Below, in pieces: positions 895-52,854 of a DNA stretch of 64,000 nt. Source of the stretch: Paludibacteraceae bacterium (GTDB lineage Bacteria > Bacteroidota > Bacteroidia > Bacteroidales > Paludibacteraceae); the NCBI GenBank assembly GCA_017478725.1, contig JAFVDD010000025.1, forward strand, positions 1 to 64,000, given 5' to 3'. The notes beneath the pieces are model-generated. The model was not told where the DNA came from and made no database searches. It was given only the letters and a program-made list of their open reading frames with translations. Position 1 is the stretch's first letter. Each line of letters begins with the position of its first letter. A program made the translations under genes and the position numbers.

Positions 895-922
895 CTTCTG
901 AAGGCTGATGGCTGAAGGCTGA
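895..922. repeat. Heptamer tandem repeat (AGGCTGA type)
   Basis: Units CTTCTGA, AGGCTGA, TGGCTGA, AGGCTGA with a partial fifth unit. On the other strand these read as TCAGCC-type heptamers, the same word family found in several other places in the window. Confidence 0.8.
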
Positions 923-928
923 AGGCTT

Positions 929-1313: not shown

Positions 1314-1364
1314 TCAGCCGTCAGCTGTCAGAACAGAAAGCTGAAAGCCGAAAGCTGAAAGCTG
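1314..1364. repeat. Two adjacent heptamer tandem repeats
   Basis: TCAGCCG, TCAGCTG, TCAGAAC at 1314-1334 is followed by AAAGCTG, AAAGCCG, AAAGCTG, AAAGCTG at 1337-1364. Both tracts keep a strict 7-base period. They fill most of the gap between two small genes. Confidence 0.85.
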
Positions 1365-1383
1365 AATTCATAAATAATAAGGG

Positions 1384-9875: not shown

Positions 9876-12764
9876 TCAATGGTCATATATTTTGAGGAAG
9901 GGTTTTTGCGGCGTGATAGCGGGCAAAGGGAGGAACAGCCTCCGGGCGGCGGTATTATCCGCCAGCGGAGTGACAAGGATTTGTCCTTGGGCATGTTTGG
10001 CCTGATGTGCTTTTTGCTGCACCATCATCCGGGACAACTTGGTGCCATAGGAAGAAAGGAGACGTGTGTCGGTGAGATACAACGCTCCGCCGATATTCTC
10101 CGCGCCGAGGTCAGATGTGGGAACGAGAGCCACGCCGTCGTTGGTGTCCGCACTATTGACCACAGCCGCTATCTGCACTTGCGCGCGGTTGCCTGTGAGG
10201 CGCATATCCTCCTTGTCTAGAAACCATATATCTGTTTCGTTGAGGGCGGATTTGTGCGGAGTGGACGAATAGGGTCCTTTGCCGAGCCAAGCGAACGTGT
10301 CGTAGCGCTCAGGCATACGGAGCGTCAGACCGAGTTCCAGGATAGTGCCGGAAGCGTGGCGGGAATGGATGTCATAGGCAATGCTGACTCCTCCTTCCAG
10401 GGACGGCTTCACGGTGATGAGTCCTTCGTAGTACTCCTCACCGTCCGTGTTCTGTCTGTGCCAGCGTGCATGAACGGTATATACCGCTTCGCTCCCTTCC
10501 CATTGCTGTCCGCATGACAGGATCTCCGGCGCGATGATATACGGCATCCAATAGGAATCCAGTTTGCGCCGCTGGATGAGATTGACGAGATTGATAGACG
10601 GTTTGCGCCCTACGCGAAGAAGGAGAGGCGAGCTCAGGAGCGTATCGCCCGTAGCGGACACGATGGTCAGCACGCCGTTTTGGAAGTAATGACGGCGACG
10701 CAGGTCAGACCCGGCTGAGCCCGTGGCCGTGATTTCTGACTTCTGACGGCTGATTTCTGACGGCTGAAGTCGTATGTTATGCTCATAGATAGTGTCACCT
10801 GCCGGAGAGGTAAAACAGAGATGAAGCAGCGGACAGGCCATGCCGGACAGCCGTTGGCTGATAGTGAGTGTCTCCTGCTGAGCCGGCAAAGCCCGCAGTC
10901 GCTTGATGCCGGACGCTACCGGTTCTCTGCCATCCGTGATACGCCAATGGCAGTGGAAATGTCTCAACGAAAGGAAATCATGACGGTTCTCCACGACAAA
11001 AGACAGTCGGGTTTTGCCTTTGCCGTCATGGTAAAGAAGGCTGTCCGTATCTACCCATATGGGGCTATAGAGTTTGCGCACTTGGAAATAATCCTCCTGA
11101 GGATAGCGGTTGGCAAACACGATGCCGTCCGTTCCTTTGTCGGTATAACTATCGTAATAAGTGGTCGAATCGAGCCACACTCCTTGCGGAATAGTATCCA
11201 GCCGGCATTCTTCTGCAGTCCGTGTCCGTCGGAGAGCCTGATCGGCCCATACCCATACCGAACCTCCGGCGATGCCGGCATGACGGCGGATCATCGCCTG
11301 CTGCGACTCCAGCGCATCAAACGCCAAACCGAGCGCATGCGCATATTCGGTGAGGATAATAGGTTTGCGGTGATAACCGGCCATCTCCTCTATCTTCTCC
11401 ACCGATTGGTAATGGAGCGCAAAAAGCGAGAGGGCCGACGTAGTCGAATCACGGAGAAAAGCATTGCTTACCTTGTATCCGGGTATGGTGCGCGGACGTG
11501 TGGGGTCGATATCACGCACGTGCTCGATGGTTTTCTCGACGATATAGGTATAGGGGTTCTCGTTCCCTACCGACCAAATGATAACTGACGGGTGGTTCTT
11601 GTTGAGCGAAACGGTAGCATCCGCCCGCTCGATGAGCCGCGGCAGATAGGCTGTGTCCGGCAAGTTGGAATCGCCATAACCGAACGGCACTTCGCACACC
11701 ACATACAGCCCCATCTCGTCGCACAAGCGGAAAAAGAGCGGCTGGAACGGATAGTGAGCCGTACGGATATAGTTGATATTCGCCTGCTTGACAAGGCGCA
11801 GATCTTCTCTAAGCACGTGCTCCGGAATAGCACGGCCGTACTCGGGGTGCAGTTCGTTCATACATACGCCCCGCAGCGTGAGCGGACGGTTGTTGAGCAG
11901 CAAGGTGTCTCCGGCTATGCGAATCTCACGTATGCCCACTTTCTCCACCCTGCGGTCCGTTGTTCCGTTGCCGTCCGTATATTCGATGGACAAGGTATAG
12001 AGATAGGGATCCTCAGCCGACCATAGACGGGGTTTGCGGATAGAGGCATGAAGGACCGTGTCGCCTTTGGCAACTACGTGTCCGCGGTGGTCACGAAGCC
12101 ATGTGCGGCACTGTCCGTCAGCCGGAAGCGGCGCATGGATGCGTGTGCGGCAATCTACCGTGGCACTGCCGTCGGAGTGCACCGTAGAGCGGAAAGTATA
12201 ATCGGCTATATGACGGTTCGGCCGCGTGAGGAGTGTCACATCGCGGAAGATTCCGGTCAGCGCCCAGCAGTCGTTGAGGTCGAAACGATAGGCATTGTCA
12301 CGGCTGCGCGTGCTTACGTCCATAGCGAGCGTATTATTACCGTCTTGAGCCAGAAAAGGCGTTATATCCCATTCCTTGCGGCAGAAAGCCGCAGCCCAGT
12401 AGCCTGCGTGATGGCCGTTGACGTACAAGTCATAGGCAAAAAGCACTCCGTCCGTACGCAGCACCAAGCGCTCGCCTTCTTTCATGGAGGGGGTAGCGAA
12501 ATGCGTGCGGTAGAGCCCGTGGCAAGCGCTGACCTCTCCGCCGTACTCCGGCTTCTTCTTGCCGGCAATCTCCCAGTTGCCCGGTACGGCGATATGATCC
12601 CACCGGCTGTCATCGTAGCCGGGGTGATAGAATACGGAAAGGCTGTCGGGCAGCGTCGGTGCGTCCACAAAGCAGAAACGCCATTCGCCGTTGAGCGATT
12701 GACCGGCAAAGCTTAATAATGCCCGGCTAAGAAACACTGTCAATATGTAAATCTTTTTTCTCAT
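9876..12764 (-). CDS. Glycoside hydrolase family 2, beta-galactosidase-like
   Basis: A 962-residue secreted enzyme starting MRKKIYILTVFLSRALLSFA. Domains in order: a GH2 sugar-binding domain (about 25-185), an Ig-like domain, a TIM barrel (about 290-570), further beta domains, and a Bgal_small-like C-terminal domain. The acid/base Glu lies in WSVGNEN near 400 and the nucleophile Glu in LTEYAHALG near 472. Family members are beta-galactosidases, beta-glucuronidases or related enzymes; in this PUL, removal of galactan side chains or terminal galactose from a pectic polymer is likely. A five-unit heptamer repeat inserts a low-complexity peptide (QPSEISRQKSEITATG) around residue 670, between domains. 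Confidence 0.9.
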   Translation of the reverse strand: MRKKIYILTVFLSRALLSFAGQSLNGEWRFCFVDAPTLPDSLSVFYHPGYDDSRWDHIAVPGNWEIAGKKKPEYGGEVSACHGLYRTHFATPSMKEGERLVLRTDGVLFAYDLYVNGHHAGYWAAAFCRKEWDITPFLAQDGNNTLAMDVSTRSRDNAYRFDLNDCWALTGIFRDVTLLTRPNRHIADYTFRSTVHSDGSATVDCRTRIHAPLPADGQCRTWLRDHRGHVVAKGDTVLHASIRKPRLWSAEDPYLYTLSIEYTDGNGTTDRRVEKVGIREIRIAGDTLLLNNRPLTLRGVCMNELHPEYGRAIPEHVLREDLRLVKQANINYIRTAHYPFQPLFFRLCDEMGLYVVCEVPFGYGDSNLPDTAYLPRLIERADATVSLNKNHPSVIIWSVGNENPYTYIVEKTIEHVRDIDPTRPRTIPGYKVSNAFLRDSTTSALSLFALHYQSVEKIEEMAGYHRKPIILTEYAHALGLAFDALESQQAMIRRHAGIAGGSVWVWADQALRRTRTAEECRLDTIPQGVWLDSTTYYDSYTDKGTDGIVFANRYPQEDYFQVRKLYSPIWVDTDSLLYHDGKGKTRLSFVVENRHDFLSLRHFHCHWRITDGREPVASGIKRLRALPAQQETLTISQRLSGMACPLLHLCFTSPAGDTIYEHNIRLQPSEISRQKSEITATGSAGSDLRRRHYFQNGVLTIVSATGDTLLSSPLLLRVGRKPSINLVNLIQRRKLDSYWMPYIIAPEILSCGQQWEGSEAVYTVHARWHRQNTDGEEYYEGLITVKPSLEGGVSIAYDIHSRHASGTILELGLTLRMPERYDTFAWLGKGPYSSTPHKSALNETDIWFLDKEDMRLTGNRAQVQIAAVVNSADTNDGVALVPTSDLGAENIGGALYLTDTRLLSSYGTKLSRMMVQQKAHQAKHAQGQILVTPLADNTAARRLFLPLPAITPQKPFLKIYDH
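10733..10767. repeat. Heptamer tandem repeat inside the GH2 gene
   Basis: Five units: TTTCTGA, CTTCTGA, CGGCTGA, TTTCTGA, CGGCTGA. On the coding strand they read as TCAGCCG and TCAGAAA words and encode SEISRQKSEI-type residues in frame. Confidence 0.85.
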
Positions 12765-32808: not shown

Positions 32809-33714
32809 TTAATTGCCTTTTTCCGATAACCTTTCCAAATAGCGGCCGTAAGCCGTTTTCATCTCATGGCCGAGTGCTGCCAACTGCTCCCGGCTGATCC
32901 ATCCGTTGCGCCATGCTATTTCCTCTATGCAGCTGACGTAGAACCCTTGCCGGTTCTGAATGGTGGCGATGAAATTGCCTGCCTCTAAAAGGCTGTCGCA
33001 GTTGCCGGTGTCGAGCCATGCGAAACCGCGGCTGAAGAGTTTGACTTTGAGCGTGCCGTCCGCCAGATAGCTTTTGTTGAGGTCGGTGATCTCATATTCG
33101 CCGCGTGCGCTGGGTTTGAGAGCAGCGGCTTTGTCACAGACTTGCGCATCGTAGAAATAAAGTCCCGGTACGGCATAATGGCTCTTGGGATGCTCGGGTT
33201 TTTCCTCCAGACTCAACACGCGCAACTGATGGCTGACTTCTGACGGCTGAGGGCTTTCTTCAAACTCCACCACGCCGTAAGCGCGCGGATCCGCCACTTC
33301 GTAGCCGAAGATGCAGGCTCCGCCGTTCTGCTCTACGTCCTCCACTGCCTCCTTGAGCATGCGGCTGAAATGCTGGCCGTAGAACATATTGTCGCCCAAA
33401 ATCAGGCAGCCCGGCTCACCGTTGAGAAACTCCTTGCCCAACACAAACGCCTGCGCCAGACCGTTGGGCACCAGCTGCACTTTGTATTCCAGCCTCATAC
33501 CCAGACGGCTGCCGTCGCCTAACAGTTCCTCAAACATCGGCAAATCGCGCGGCGTAGAGATGACCAACACCTCGCGGATACCCGCCATCATGAGTGCCGA
33601 CAGCGGATAATAGATCATCGGCTTGTCGTAAACGGGCATGATTTGTTTGCTGATTGCCTTGCTTAACGGATACAGGCGTGTGGCACTGCCGCCTGCCAGA
33701 ATTATTCCTTTCAT
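32809..33714 (-). CDS. rfbA: Glucose-1-phosphate thymidylyltransferase
   Basis: About 301 residues from MKGIILAGGSATRLYPL; upstream in-frame codons overlap the promoter. It makes dTDP-glucose from glucose-1-phosphate and dTTP, the first step to dTDP-rhamnose. The nucleotide signature GGSATRLYPLSKAISKQIMPVYDKPMI is complete. ILGDNMFYG, KPEHPKSHYAVPGLYFYD and FAWLDTGNCDSLLEAG are typical of RfbA/RmlA. A four-unit heptamer repeat adds a short segment (PQPSEVSHQL) around residue 162, at a loop before the conserved VLSLEEKP. rfbB lies apart at 45286. It is the first gene of the operon that includes the HTCS. Confidence 0.95.
   Translation of the reverse strand: MKGIILAGGSATRLYPLSKAISKQIMPVYDKPMIYYPLSALMMAGIREVLVISTPRDLPMFEELLGDGSRLGMRLEYKVQLVPNGLAQAFVLGKEFLNGEPGCLILGDNMFYGQHFSRMLKEAVEDVEQNGGACIFGYEVADPRAYGVVEFEESPQPSEVSHQLRVLSLEEKPEHPKSHYAVPGLYFYDAQVCDKAAALKPSARGEYEITDLNKSYLADGTLKVKLFSRGFAWLDTGNCDSLLEAGNFIATIQNRQGFYVSCIEEIAWRNGWISREQLAALGHEMKTAYGRYLERLSEKGN
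33223..33250. repeat. Heptamer tandem repeat inside rfbA
   Basis: Units CAACTGA, TGGCTGA, CTTCTGA, CGGCTGA. On the coding strand these are TCAGCCG, TCAGAAG, TCAGCCA, TCAGTTG and they encode SEVSHQL-like residues. Confidence 0.85.
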
Positions 33715-33751
33715 AACCATGTAGATTTTTTGACTTTTAGTCAATTTGGCA

Positions 33752-33783
33752 CAAAAGTACAAAAAAAAAATCACACATGCAAA
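33752..33783 (-). promoter_or_regulatory. rfbA promoter
   Basis: TTTG (33780-33783), 20 bases, then TACTTTTG (33752-33759) on the minus strand. It starts the rfbA-HTCS-glmM-surE transcript. Confidence 0.85.
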
Positions 33784-33828
33784 TATATTCGCCAATTTTT
33801 ACACATTGCACATTTTTTTTCATAAAAT

Positions 33829-36196: not shown

Positions 36197-36251
36197 CTTA
36201 TCGGGGGTATATCGGAAGAATATCGGAGGCACATCGGAGGCAAGTCGGGAT
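36197..36251. repeat. 11-base tandem repeat downstream of psuG
   Basis: Units TATATCGGAAG, AATATCGGAGG, CACATCGGAGG, CAAGTCGGGAT at 36208-36251, with a degenerate unit before them. CACATCGGAGG is also the unit of the repeat at 52800-52854. Confidence 0.85.
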
Positions 36252-47190: not shown

Positions 47191-48654
47191 ATGGATTTTG
47201 AAGCAAAAATAGATACGCCCGAACTGCGATTAGTAGGGCAGTTAGCAGACGAAATGGGGCTGGAATGCTATGTCGTAGGCGGATGGGTGCGTGACCTCTT
47301 TCTTCACCGCCCGTCTAATGACATAGATGTGGTGGTAGTAGGTTCAGGCATTGCGATGGCAGAAGCTGTAGCAAAACGTCTGGGTAAAAGAACTCACCTC
47401 TCTGTTTTCAAGACCTACGGCACGGCTCAGGTCAAAAAAGGTGAGCTTGAGTTGGAATTCGTGGGTGCCCGCAAGGAGAGCTACACCCGCGACAGCCGCA
47501 ACCCTATCGTAGAGGACGGTACGCTGGATGATGACCTCCACCGCCGCGATTTCACCATCAATGCCATGGCTATCTGCCTCAACAAAGACGCATATGGTGA
47601 ATTAGTCGATTTATTCGATGGAATCGGGGATTTGGAGCAGTGTATCATCCGCACACCTCTGGATCCGGACATCACTTTCAGCGACGATCCGCTCCGGATG
47701 ATGCGGGCTATCCGGTTTGCCACGCAGCTGGGCTTCAACCTGGACGGCGAGACGTTTGACGCCATTGTGCGCAACCGCGAACGCATCTCTATTATCACGC
47801 GCGAGCGCATAGCCGACGAGCTGAACAAGATCATGCTCAGCCGCCGTCCGTCGGAGGGCTGGCTGCTGCTGGACAAGACCGGACTGCTGCCGCTCATCTT
47901 CCCCGAACTCGCCGCCCTCAAAGGCGTGGAGGTCAAGGAAGGTCGTGGACACAAGGATGTGTTCTACCACACGCTGAAGGTGCTGGACAATGTGGCGGAG
48001 TTACAGCAATCAGCCGTCAGCCATCAGCCATCAGCCGTCAGCCATCAGACGTCAGAGCGAGATACAGTTCTCTGGTTGCGCTGGGCGGCGCTGCTGCACG
48101 ATATAGGCAAGCCGCGCTCTAAGGCTTGGGACCCGCAGGCTGGGTGGACTTTCCGCAACCATAATTACATAGGCGCGAAAATGGTGCCGCGCATCTTCGC
48201 CAAGATGAAACTGCCGCTCAACGAGAAGATGGAGTACGTCAGAAAGATGGTGGACTTGCACATGCGTCCAATCAATCTGATAGAGGACACCGTGACCGAC
48301 TCCGCCGTAAGGCGGTTGCTGTTTGAGGCCGGCGATGACATAGAAGACCTGATGTTGCTTTGCGACGCCGACATCACCAGCCGCAACGAACAGAAAGTGG
48401 AGCGCTACCACCGGAACTACCGGCTGGTGCGGCAGAAAATGGTAGAACTGGAGGAGCGTGACCGTATCCGTAATTTCCAGCCGCCTGTGGACGGATTGGA
48501 GATCATGCAACTGCTTCACCTGGAGCCGTGCAGCACCGTAGGCGAACTGAAATCCGCCATCAAGGATGCTATCCTGGACGGCGTGATTCCCAATGAGCAT
48601 GAGGCAGCGAAAGCCTACCTGATGCAGTTGGCACAAGCGCGCGGGTTATGCTGA
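47191..48654 (+). CDS. cca: CCA tRNA nucleotidyltransferase (HD-domain type)
   Basis: 487 residues from MDFEAKIDTPELRLVG. It adds or repairs the CCA end of tRNA. The nucleotidyltransferase site is GGWVRDLFLHRPSNDIDVVV, with metal Asp residues in DID. RRDFTINAMA, DPLRMMRAIRFATQLGF and NRERISIITRERIADE complete the core. A C-terminal HD domain (LLHDIGKP, VDLHMRP) follows, as in bifunctional Cca. A seven-unit heptamer repeat adds two copies of SAVSHQP or SAVSHQT at residues 274-289, between the neck and the HD part. It shares its last nine bases with the convergent reductase gene. Confidence 0.95.
   Translation: MDFEAKIDTPELRLVGQLADEMGLECYVVGGWVRDLFLHRPSNDIDVVVVGSGIAMAEAVAKRLGKRTHLSVFKTYGTAQVKKGELELEFVGARKESYTRDSRNPIVEDGTLDDDLHRRDFTINAMAICLNKDAYGELVDLFDGIGDLEQCIIRTPLDPDITFSDDPLRMMRAIRFATQLGFNLDGETFDAIVRNRERISIITRERIADELNKIMLSRRPSEGWLLLDKTGLLPLIFPELAALKGVEVKEGRGHKDVFYHTLKVLDNVAELQQSAVSHQPSAVSHQTSERDTVLWLRWAALLHDIGKPRSKAWDPQAGWTFRNHNYIGAKMVPRIFAKMKLPLNEKMEYVRKMVDLHMRPINLIEDTVTDSAVRRLLFEAGDDIEDLMLLCDADITSRNEQKVERYHRNYRLVRQKMVELEERDRIRNFQPPVDGLEIMQLLHLEPCSTVGELKSAIKDAILDGVIPNEHEAAKAYLMQLAQARGLC
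48010..48058. repeat. Seven-unit heptamer tandem repeat inside cca
   Basis: Units TCAGCCG, TCAGCCA, TCAGCCA, TCAGCCG, TCAGCCA, TCAGACG, TCAGAGC, perfectly in phase, 49 bases. It is the longest example of this family in the window. It encodes two copies of a seven-residue peptide. Confidence 0.92.
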
Positions 48655-49617: not shown

Positions 49618-49640
49618 AAGAGATTTATAATTTATGAATC

Positions 49641-49688
49641 GCCATGTCGATATGTCGATATGTCGATATGTCGTCATGTCGCTATGTC
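49641..49688. repeat. Octamer tandem repeat, six units (GATATGTC type)
   Basis: GCCATGTC, GATATGTC three times, GTCATGTC, GCTATGTC, then two degenerate ATTCGCCC-like words up to about 49707. It lies between two minus-strand genes and covers the last codons of the regulator at 49682-51211. It is homologous to 836-883. Confidence 0.9.
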
Positions 49689-51211
49689 AACATTCGCCCA
49701 TTCGCCATTATCTGGATCTGCCGCTCGAAATCATCGCGGTTGCCGAGGGCGTTATTCTTGATCTTGACGCGGTAGTTGGAGATTGTATTGGGGCTGTAGC
49801 AAAGGAGCTGCGCTATCTTGGCTGAGCTGTCGATGCCCAGCAGGATAAGGGCGAAGATACGCATCTCGATGGTCAGACGCTCGCCGGGTTTGGGCGTAAG
49901 GCGCGCCTCCGGTTTGAGCAAGGCATTGAAATCCTCGACAAAAGTGCCGTAGAGGGAGAGGAAGGTGTCGTCGAAAGAGCGGTAGAAATTCTCCATCTCG
50001 CGGTCCATAAACGCCGATGGGTCTTTCTCTCCGGCGCGGCGCGCCATAGTAGTGAGGCGGCGGATATAATCGCTGTAAACCTCCAGATAGCGGCATATAT
50101 ACTGCTCCTTGACATGATTGGCGGCGTGGAGTTGCGAGTTGATGGCGGAGAGCTGGGCGTTGAGCGCAGAGAGTTTGCGGTTCTGGCGAACGGCAAAGAT
50201 GATAGAGAGCACCAATCCGAAGAGCATCACCGCCAATGCCGAAAGAGCGATGACGAGGGCGATGTTTCTGTTTTGCAGCAGCTGGTCATGCTCGTTGCCG
50301 ATAGTATGCCCCAAGGCGTAGGTCTGCACGTAGCGCGTCGGGGCGTTGAAGAAAGAGGCGTTGGTGAGCGTATAATTACTAATAATGTACGCGCGCGTGA
50401 GGTCGCCCTCATCATAGCAGTCTTCCGCTACTATCCATGAGGAGCCATTGTCGGTGATGCCGCAACGGACGTCCGCTATTGCCGACCGGACCAGCCACTC
50501 ACGGCGTTTGTTGCGGTTGCCTGCCTGCTCGTAGATCATTGCATGACCATAAGCGAGAATAGCGTATTGGTGTTGATTAGGCCCGACGCGCTGCAGCAGC
50601 TGACGGCTGGCATCAAGAGCTGCGGGCCAGTCGCTTTTGTCGGAAGCCTGATAGAGCGTCAGCCACAACCGGCTCTCGACAGGGTTGACCGTGTCATGCG
50701 CAAGCGCCACCAGGAGCGAGTCATAGTAACGGTGAGCCGTTTGCTGCAGATCCTGCATGTCGTAGGTAGGCAGCAAACCGGTAGTGGCGGCTTCGTTGTA
50801 GAGCAGCCAGATCGTTTTGTAGCCATCCACCGAATTCAGCGAAGGCGATTCGGGCATTTTGAGAATGTCGAACGCATTCGCATAATGCCCGGAGGCGGAG
50901 AGCAGTTGAATAAGACCTGTGAAAGCCTGCGTGCGCACGGGTTCGGACACATAACGCAGACGCATATACCACGCCAGAGCCGAGTCAGACTGGAAATGCT
51001 GGTACTCGCGTGCAATAGCGAGTTGGCGCTCCGGCGTCATGGGCACAAGGGCGCAGAGCGAGTCAATACGCGCCTGGTGGCGGCGGATATACACCTGCGA
51101 GCGCCCTATCTCGGCAGTATAGACATTGAGGAGCGAATCAAGGGTATTGGATGCCTGCAGGGTGCTAAAAGAGACAACGAACAGGCAGGCTGAAACGATT
51201 TTCTTGAGCAT
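49682..51211 (-). CDS. Membrane-anchored HTH transcription regulator, DUF6377-like (PUL2-linked)
   Basis: About 509 residues from MLKKIVSACLFVVSFSTLQA; a longer start overlaps the promoter. It is a close paralogue of the regulator at 24153-25691: the periplasmic helical region has LAIAREYQHFQSDSALAWY where the other has LAIAREYLHFQSDSARAWY. A membrane helix (near 320-345), a coiled coil and the C-terminal helix-turn-helix MRIFALILLGIDSSAKIAQLLCYSPNTISNYRVKIK are the same. The final residues MANGRMLT come from repeat DNA. It is transcribed away from PUL2, so a role in PUL2 control is inferred. Confidence 0.8.
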   Translation of the reverse strand: MLKKIVSACLFVVSFSTLQASNTLDSLLNVYTAEIGRSQVYIRRHQARIDSLCALVPMTPERQLAIAREYQHFQSDSALAWYMRLRYVSEPVRTQAFTGLIQLLSASGHYANAFDILKMPESPSLNSVDGYKTIWLLYNEAATTGLLPTYDMQDLQQTAHRYYDSLLVALAHDTVNPVESRLWLTLYQASDKSDWPAALDASRQLLQRVGPNQHQYAILAYGHAMIYEQAGNRNKRREWLVRSAIADVRCGITDNGSSWIVAEDCYDEGDLTRAYIISNYTLTNASFFNAPTRYVQTYALGHTIGNEHDQLLQNRNIALVIALSALAVMLFGLVLSIIFAVRQNRKLSALNAQLSAINSQLHAANHVKEQYICRYLEVYSDYIRRLTTMARRAGEKDPSAFMDREMENFYRSFDDTFLSLYGTFVEDFNALLKPEARLTPKPGERLTIEMRIFALILLGIDSSAKIAQLLCYSPNTISNYRVKIKNNALGNRDDFERQIQIMANGRMLT

Positions 51212-52710: not shown

Positions 52711-52740
52711 CGGGAATCAGGTTTGATATCGTTTACCGTC

Positions 52741-52854
52741 ACCGCCGACTCACCACCGACTCACCACAGACTCACCGCCGAGAGAGGTAACTCAGGAAGC
52801 ACATCGGAGGCACATCGGAGGCACATCGGAAGCGCATTGGAAGCGCATCGGGTG
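52741..52854. repeat. Two 11-base tandem repeat tracts downstream of the first PUL2 gene
   Basis: ACCGCCGACTC, ACCACCGACTC, ACCACAGACTC, ACCGCCGAGAG at 52741-52784. Then CACATCGGAGG twice, CACATCGGAAG, CGCATTGGAAG, CGCATCGGGTG at 52800-52854. The second word is the same as at 36230-36240. Confidence 0.9.

Follow-up and report, generated by a model that had tools for sequence, protein, structure and literature searches.

Heptamer-unit repeats that occur at many loci per genome are known from cyanobacteria as STRR sequences. Several other described systems resemble the repeats reported here. Arrays of TAACTGA have been described in Beggiatoaceae, cyanobacteria and five Bacteroidetes genomes, with one set in a putative purC, and the mechanism of their mobility is given there as not known (MacGregor 2015, PMC4679880). 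G-rich heptamers have been reported from Xanthomonas and Nostoc (Rehm 2015, PMC4692102). Among palindromic elements, REPs with GTAG/CGTC tags are found inside genes for known proteins, including those of replication and repair (PMC3733652), Rickettsia palindromic elements lie in frame in metabolic genes (reviewed in PMC10969869), and MITEs overlapping genes have also been reported (PMC5896051). Heptamer arrays and in-gene palindromes of the REP and Rickettsia kinds are thus already known, and the initial annotation of the present locus, which knew of no description for Bacteroidota, had missed the TAACTGA arrays of the five Bacteroidetes genomes. Here, we describe a TCAGCCR array in the tRNA nucleotidyltransferase gene cca of a Paludibacteraceae bacterium, which belongs to a family of heptad repeats that is dispersed through the genome and has a TCAG core.

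The cca array and other repeats in the window

The window is the whole stretch of DNA that was analysed, 64,000 nucleotides of a single contig, and contains the following features.

898..927, minus strand: intergenic array of GGCTGAW (reverse complement TCAGCCT/TCAGCCA), same family as the cca word
1314..1366, plus strand: two-armed heptad hairpin, a TCAGCCG/TCAGCTG arm facing a GCTGAAA arm; fold z -2.72
10731..10767 (about), minus strand: degenerate in-frame array of TCAGCCG/TCAGAAA/TCAGAAG in a glycosyl hydrolase family 2 gene (9876-12764, minus)
33226..33250 (about), minus strand: degenerate in-frame array of TCAGCCG/TCAGAAG/TCAGCCA in a nucleotidyl transferase gene (32809-33795, minus)
47191..48654, plus strand: cca, tRNA nucleotidyltransferase, host of the array; ORF with Pfam matches PF01743, PF12627 and PF01966
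48010..48058, plus strand: TCAGCCR array in cca, five exact and two decayed units, encoding SAVSHQPSAVSHQTSE in the HD domain

The cca reading frame runs from an ATG at 47191 to a stop codon ending at 48654 (the ORF listing begins at an upstream GTG, 47158), and Pfam recognizes a PolyA_pol head, an RNA-binding domain and an HD domain in the product. The array is 49 bases long, begins on a codon boundary and reads, in order, TCAGCCG, TCAGCCA, TCAGCCA, TCAGCCG, TCAGCCA, TCAGACG and TCAGAGC. The sequence agrees with the initial annotation that this heptamer tract is in frame and encodes two SAVSHQP/T copies (SAVSHQP-SAVSHQT), but seven units of TCAGCCR type in perfect phase had been claimed and only five are exact (ending in G, A, A, G and A), units 6 and 7 keeping only TCAG. 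Recent growth, which had been suggested from how clean the tract is, is not supported, and two of its units are decayed. The insert had also been assigned to the stretch that separates the core from the HD domain, whereas Pfam puts it inside the HD match (residues 257-398 of 487), ahead of the LLHDIGK helix. That a 7-base unit can remain in frame as a 7-residue unit per 21 bases, as had been proposed, follows from 7 being 1 modulo 3: every phase runs through one common set of seven codons and gives the same heptapeptide, and steps of 21 bases keep the frame. None of the seven codons is a stop on the sense strand of TCAGCCR, whereas the opposite strand has TGA in all three frames.

The word family had further been noted in gaps at 895 and 1314, where we locate it at 898-927 and 1314-1366, and in two other window genes, where it was found in degenerate form and in sense orientation in both (glycosyl hydrolase family 2 and nucleotidyl transferase). 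Counting 7-base tracts against chance, a check that had been suggested, reveals a large excess: the window has 5 perfect period-7 runs of at least 10 matches where 0.03 would be expected, and a 432-kb genome sample chosen around TCAGCCR arrays has 62 where 0.3 would be expected. Repeats of other periods are also present. Octamer arrays lie by gene ends at 836-884 and 49639-49693 of the window (CATGTCGT, of the ACATGACG class, and ATGTCGAT), the ACATGACG-class octamer forming 10 arrays in the 432-kb sample, and 11-mer arrays, partly with a common ATCGGAGGCAC, are found at 36199-36248 and 52739-52851.

The TCAGCCR family across the assembly

In the 2.16-Mb assembly the doublet TCAGCCRTCAGCCR has 65 matches (27 forward, 38 reverse) and the reversed-pattern control has 0. 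Every match was inspected in context, and the resulting 45 rows, one of them a duplicate from an overlapping stretch, represent 44 arrays, with 26 located in 23 ORFs (longest-ORF calls by a custom script) and 18 classed as intergenic, of which one lies where an implausible antisense ORF ends. Hence, the earlier view of a single insertion was too narrow, as TCAGCCR forms 26 arrays inside ORFs, the cca tract among them, and the presence of the word genome-wide rules out a single-gene contingency locus in cca. The intergenic share of 18/44 exceeds the share of bases outside ORFs (long ORFs make up 91%; binomial p about 1.5e-8 at 9%).

All in-ORF arrays (26/26) are in the stop-free sense orientation, which agrees with the stop-free sense and TGA-bearing antisense strands of the unit, and they are spread over codon phases 0/1/2 as 8/8/10. 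Each of the host ORFs has a Pfam match (23/23, from three batches of 10/10, 8/8 and 5/5). The hosts include SecA, NAD-dependent DNA ligase, a Mur ligase, a member of the RecF/SMC family, RecG and DXS, together with the dihydrodipicolinate synthase family and reductase, 3-dehydroquinate synthase, PdxA (its C-terminus being made up by the array), DHFR, RimP, Cca and others; the finer names MurE, RecF and DapA are our own reading. When the DHFR is aligned to the solved structure 8uvz, an 8-residue gap coincides with QPSAVSHE. At one pdxA-family gene (L155:9241-9294) a two-armed hairpin provides the final residues together with the stop codon.

Some of the copies take a hairpin form. The pattern TCAG-N3-TCAG, counted on both strands in 709 kb of the genome, occurs 351 times versus 31 in one third-order shuffle, and among opposite arrays no more than 60 bases apart there are 18 convergent pairs and 1 divergent pair. 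A CCR word is present in some arm of 13 of the 18 composites and in both arms of one, so the spacer bases seldom pair, and in some intergenic copies the two-armed form is a ladder of 5-bp TCAGC/GCTGA steps parted by 2x2 mismatches. Folded as DNA, six of the 18 composites are mostly built of steps of 4-5 bp that are interrupted by short mismatches (z -1.11 to -3.25); the cca array is one arm, and folded alone it gives a z of -0.26. Composites account for 7/18 intergenic arrays versus 2/26 of those in ORFs (Fisher p 0.02), and since the facing arm has TGA in sense, its rarity in ORFs would be accounted for. The remaining 24/26 in-ORF arrays have no facing arm. By the composite criterion the same is true of 11/18 intergenic arrays, and the hairpin and the array may therefore be separate things. 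The ends of the composites look ragged, with no fixed ends seen, and GTAG/CGTC words are present on either strand in 14/18, mostly inside the arms, where CGTC arises from the repeat unit itself (TCAGCCG-TCAG).

Loop words in relatives and in other genomes

Close relatives were defined by Cca identity, and the best 80 of 435 were taken; these nearest relatives belong to Bacteroidales/Paludibacteraceae, appear to be metagenome-derived and come in many cases from ruminant guts. The 110 cca loci gave 87 distinct loops, own genome included, after three (L121, L128 and L130) were dropped for pattern mismatch and 20 duplicates were merged. The loop has 7 residues in 38 of the 87, 8 in one and more in 48, and among same-order Cca matches outside the genus 22/23 are shorter by 15-21 residues over the aligned span, with one longer by 10. 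The SAVSHQP block is hence absent from many relatives, the outcome that the initial annotation had anticipated. The inserts probably lie at the protein surface, judging from the alignments.

The longer Cca loops are filled with different words (by our own word classes): TCAGCCR, CAATSAC, TTGTCAA, AGTCRAA, CCAACAG, TGACGGG and ATGGTAA, in addition to an octamer (TKAACGAR), a 23-mer, palindromic CTCTCC..GAGAGG inserts and 11 left unclassed as 'other'. Runs of at least 8 matches are found in the 48 long loops at period 7 in 10 (0.24 expected), at period 8 in 4 (0 expected) and at period 14 in 11 (0.14 expected), and 30/48 have a run at any of periods 7, 8, 14, 15 and 16. On a cca DNA tree built without the loop columns, a quick tree with 29/84 inner branches open, the minimum is 38 changes in word state and 19 changes between insert and none, direction not given; the sister on this tree (L061, support 86) has a different loop word. 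Two pairs, L064/L090 and L037/L047, share identical repeat loops on cca genes that are placed apart in the tree, which may reflect recombination of cca segments or chimeric bins. Four DXS loops vary as well in 28 genomes, with inserts that look repeat-like by eye. Palindromic inserts of the CTCTCC..GAGAGG type are seen at L073 and L103 in cca and at L175, L177, L179 and L193 in DXS, where they occupy the loops that also take up the heptamers and encode peptides like LSPALSSREG / LSPTLPSREGG.

For 26 genomes the copies of four words were counted. Carriers of a word in the cca loop rank high for that word genome-wide (mean normalised rank 0.818 for 11 carriers, permutation p 5e-5; the carriers include G139, which has a variant loop), and the loop word tends to track the genome word, only loosely and with exceptions. 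CAATSAC is present 117 times in G136 and 92 times in G131, with 0 in this genome and only 3 in the carrier G139. AGTCRAA reaches 216 in G134, where it is most abundant and cca has another word, and 132 and 89 in G007 and G022, which do not have it in their cca. The TCAGCCR doublet is found in 44/101 genomes of the genus, six of them with 18 or more, and in none of the other 57; the closest genome on the cca tree has it twice. In the phylum as a whole 51/345 genomes have any match, and more than 3 are seen, apart from this genome, only in G318 (112) and G429 (75), so that inheritance throughout the phylum is rejected as the way in which the word spread. In the stretches inspected, the arrays of G318 (four stretches, including L287 and L288) were intergenic in four cases and in a doubtful reading frame in one, the single stretch of G429 (L289) has one intergenic array, that of G378 one close to where a doubtful ORF begins, and that of G160 one in sense inside an ORF.

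Repeats of period 7 extend beyond this word. Eight genome samples of about 200 kb have 14 to 42 period-7 runs each versus 0.13 expected, the sample from this genome (G000) having been taken between listed arrays and hence being TCAGCCR-depleted, and the other seven consisting of stretches in contig order on contigs reached via pattern or protein matches, match-rich in the case of G134. There is likewise an excess at period 8 and at period 11, for the latter in 8/8 genomes sampled, and G125 has more runs of period 11 (18) than of period 7 (14). Internal inserts of 5 residues or more number 125 among 299 orthologue pairs, and 24 of these have period-7 runs (control 1.6%); outside stretches chosen around arrays the figure is 11/80 (control 0.54%). 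By genome, the latter divide into 4/18 in G134, 3/12 in G135 and 4/50 elsewhere (G006 0/9, G125 1/22), so that 7 of the 11 come from G134 and G135. These figures suggest dispersed 7-base repeats, and not random small indels, as the source of some insertions in the conserved proteins of one bacterial group.

Origin of the arrays and comparison with known systems

The reading that we favour, and hold to be probable, is that of a dispersed heptad family that is copied by a DNA process, tuned by slippage and filtered to near-neutral loops, with words specific to each lineage. Copies would be made by template switching onto existing arrays, or by transposition of the hairpin by some enzyme, and would then lengthen or shorten by 7-base slippage. 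Selection would remove copies that break the frame, carry stops or fall in the protein core, and the survivors would be those in near-neutral loops. The amplified words differ between species, and tolerant loops such as those of Cca and DXS would hence be refilled with words active in that lineage. Against this reading, neither an exact empty site nor a target duplication was resolved, the ends look ragged, Y1_Tnp was not matched in this genome or in G088, G318 and G429, the link between loop word and genome word is loose, 11/18 intergenic arrays have no facing arm, and 7 of the 11 period-7 inserts outside stretches chosen around arrays come from G134 and G135. A further reading, which is rather unlikely, is a new class of minimal dispersed element: a heptad ladder hairpin, a single arm of which is translatable in all frames of one strand, that would spread by template copying and change its word between species, leaving the surface loops of essential enzymes as a record of the active word.

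Slippage in place, with arrays arising from chance units, a polymerase geometry that favours heptamers and shared words due to mutational bias, seems unlikely to be the whole explanation. It would fit the period-7 excess in all eight genomes sampled, with its companions at 8 and 11, the TCAGCCR variants, which are connected by single substitutions, and the majority of arrays that have no facing arm, and a polymerase-slippage proposal for heptamers is quoted in PMC4679880. Against it stand a single word at 44 loci with a reversed control of 0, 57/101 same-genus genomes without the doublet and only 2 in the nearest cca-tree relative, as well as convergent arms that outnumber divergent ones by 18 to 1, which slippage does not lead one to expect.

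We regard it as improbable that the repeats are of REP or MITE type and are moved by a transposase, known or of a known kind, despite the dispersed hairpins, facing arms and species-specific amplification, the CGTC within the unit TCAGCCG-TCAG and the CGTC-tagged REPs that PMC3733652 reports from Bacteroidetes, without a dedicated transposase and in known genes of several species. Y1_Tnp (PF01797) was matched in 9/28 genomes searched, 6 of them over the cut-off, and at E 1e-3 there was no match in this genome (84% complete) nor in the high-copy G088, G318 and G429, which leaves a REP transposase unsupported as the driver here. Fixed ends were likewise not seen, array length changes by 7-base units, and the reported CGTC stems of 8-9 bp with a 4-5 base loop are unlike the ladder: the six folded composites were mostly ladders and not single stems of this type.

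Heptapeptides selected for a function, for example as linkers or in regulation, are highly improbable: the same Cca and DXS loops are hit repeatedly, but the peptide changes with the word, which disfavours selection for its sequence, the three phases are used about equally and 38/87 Cca loops do without an insert. An assembly artefact of metagenome bins can practically be dismissed, even though the relatives appear metagenome-derived, given the sense orientation and open frame in 26/26 and the identical loop DNA in the separate bins L064 and L090.

A literature search, covering mostly titles and abstract openings and few subscription journals, gave no case in which one heptamer word takes the place of another in a given enzyme loop among related species, and no ladder hairpin of heptads. 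The Cca and DXS loops, followed over dozens of species, offer a natural readout of the spread of heptamer arrays, and repeat-filled loops can mislead indel-based phylogeny and annotation.

The arrays have the traits of the STRR/LSSR class, namely a head-to-tail 7-base unit above chance and the same word at many dispersed loci. With the Xanthomonas and Nostoc heptamers they share the heptamer unit and the many loci per genome, but those are described as G-rich, with four units preferred, and as under-represented in coding regions (PMC4692102). Like Rickettsia palindromic elements, they are palindromic dispersed DNA inserted in frame in unrelated conserved genes, although the Rickettsia elements are about 150 bp long with a conserved peptide (PMC10969869) and those here are about 14-75 bp of 7-base units. 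REPs resemble them in being short dispersed hairpins with common facing dimers and in-gene copies, the CGTC type occurring in Bacteroidetes without a dedicated transposase, but the CGTC families have a single 8-9 bp stem with the tag at one end (PMC3733652), in contrast to ladders and one-arm arrays. Compared with MITEs, facing arms are seen here, and the ends look ragged. The TAACTGA arrays are similar in being heptamer direct repeats with TCAG on one strand (TCAGTTA), a patchy distribution and ORF copies open one way. They differ in that, in the main genome treated in PMC4679880, most lie upstream of start codons and those in ORFs fall chiefly in hypothetical proteins or close to the ends of proteins, whereas 26/44 TCAGCCR arrays are in ORFs with a Pfam match and the same loops are filled with different words in related species.
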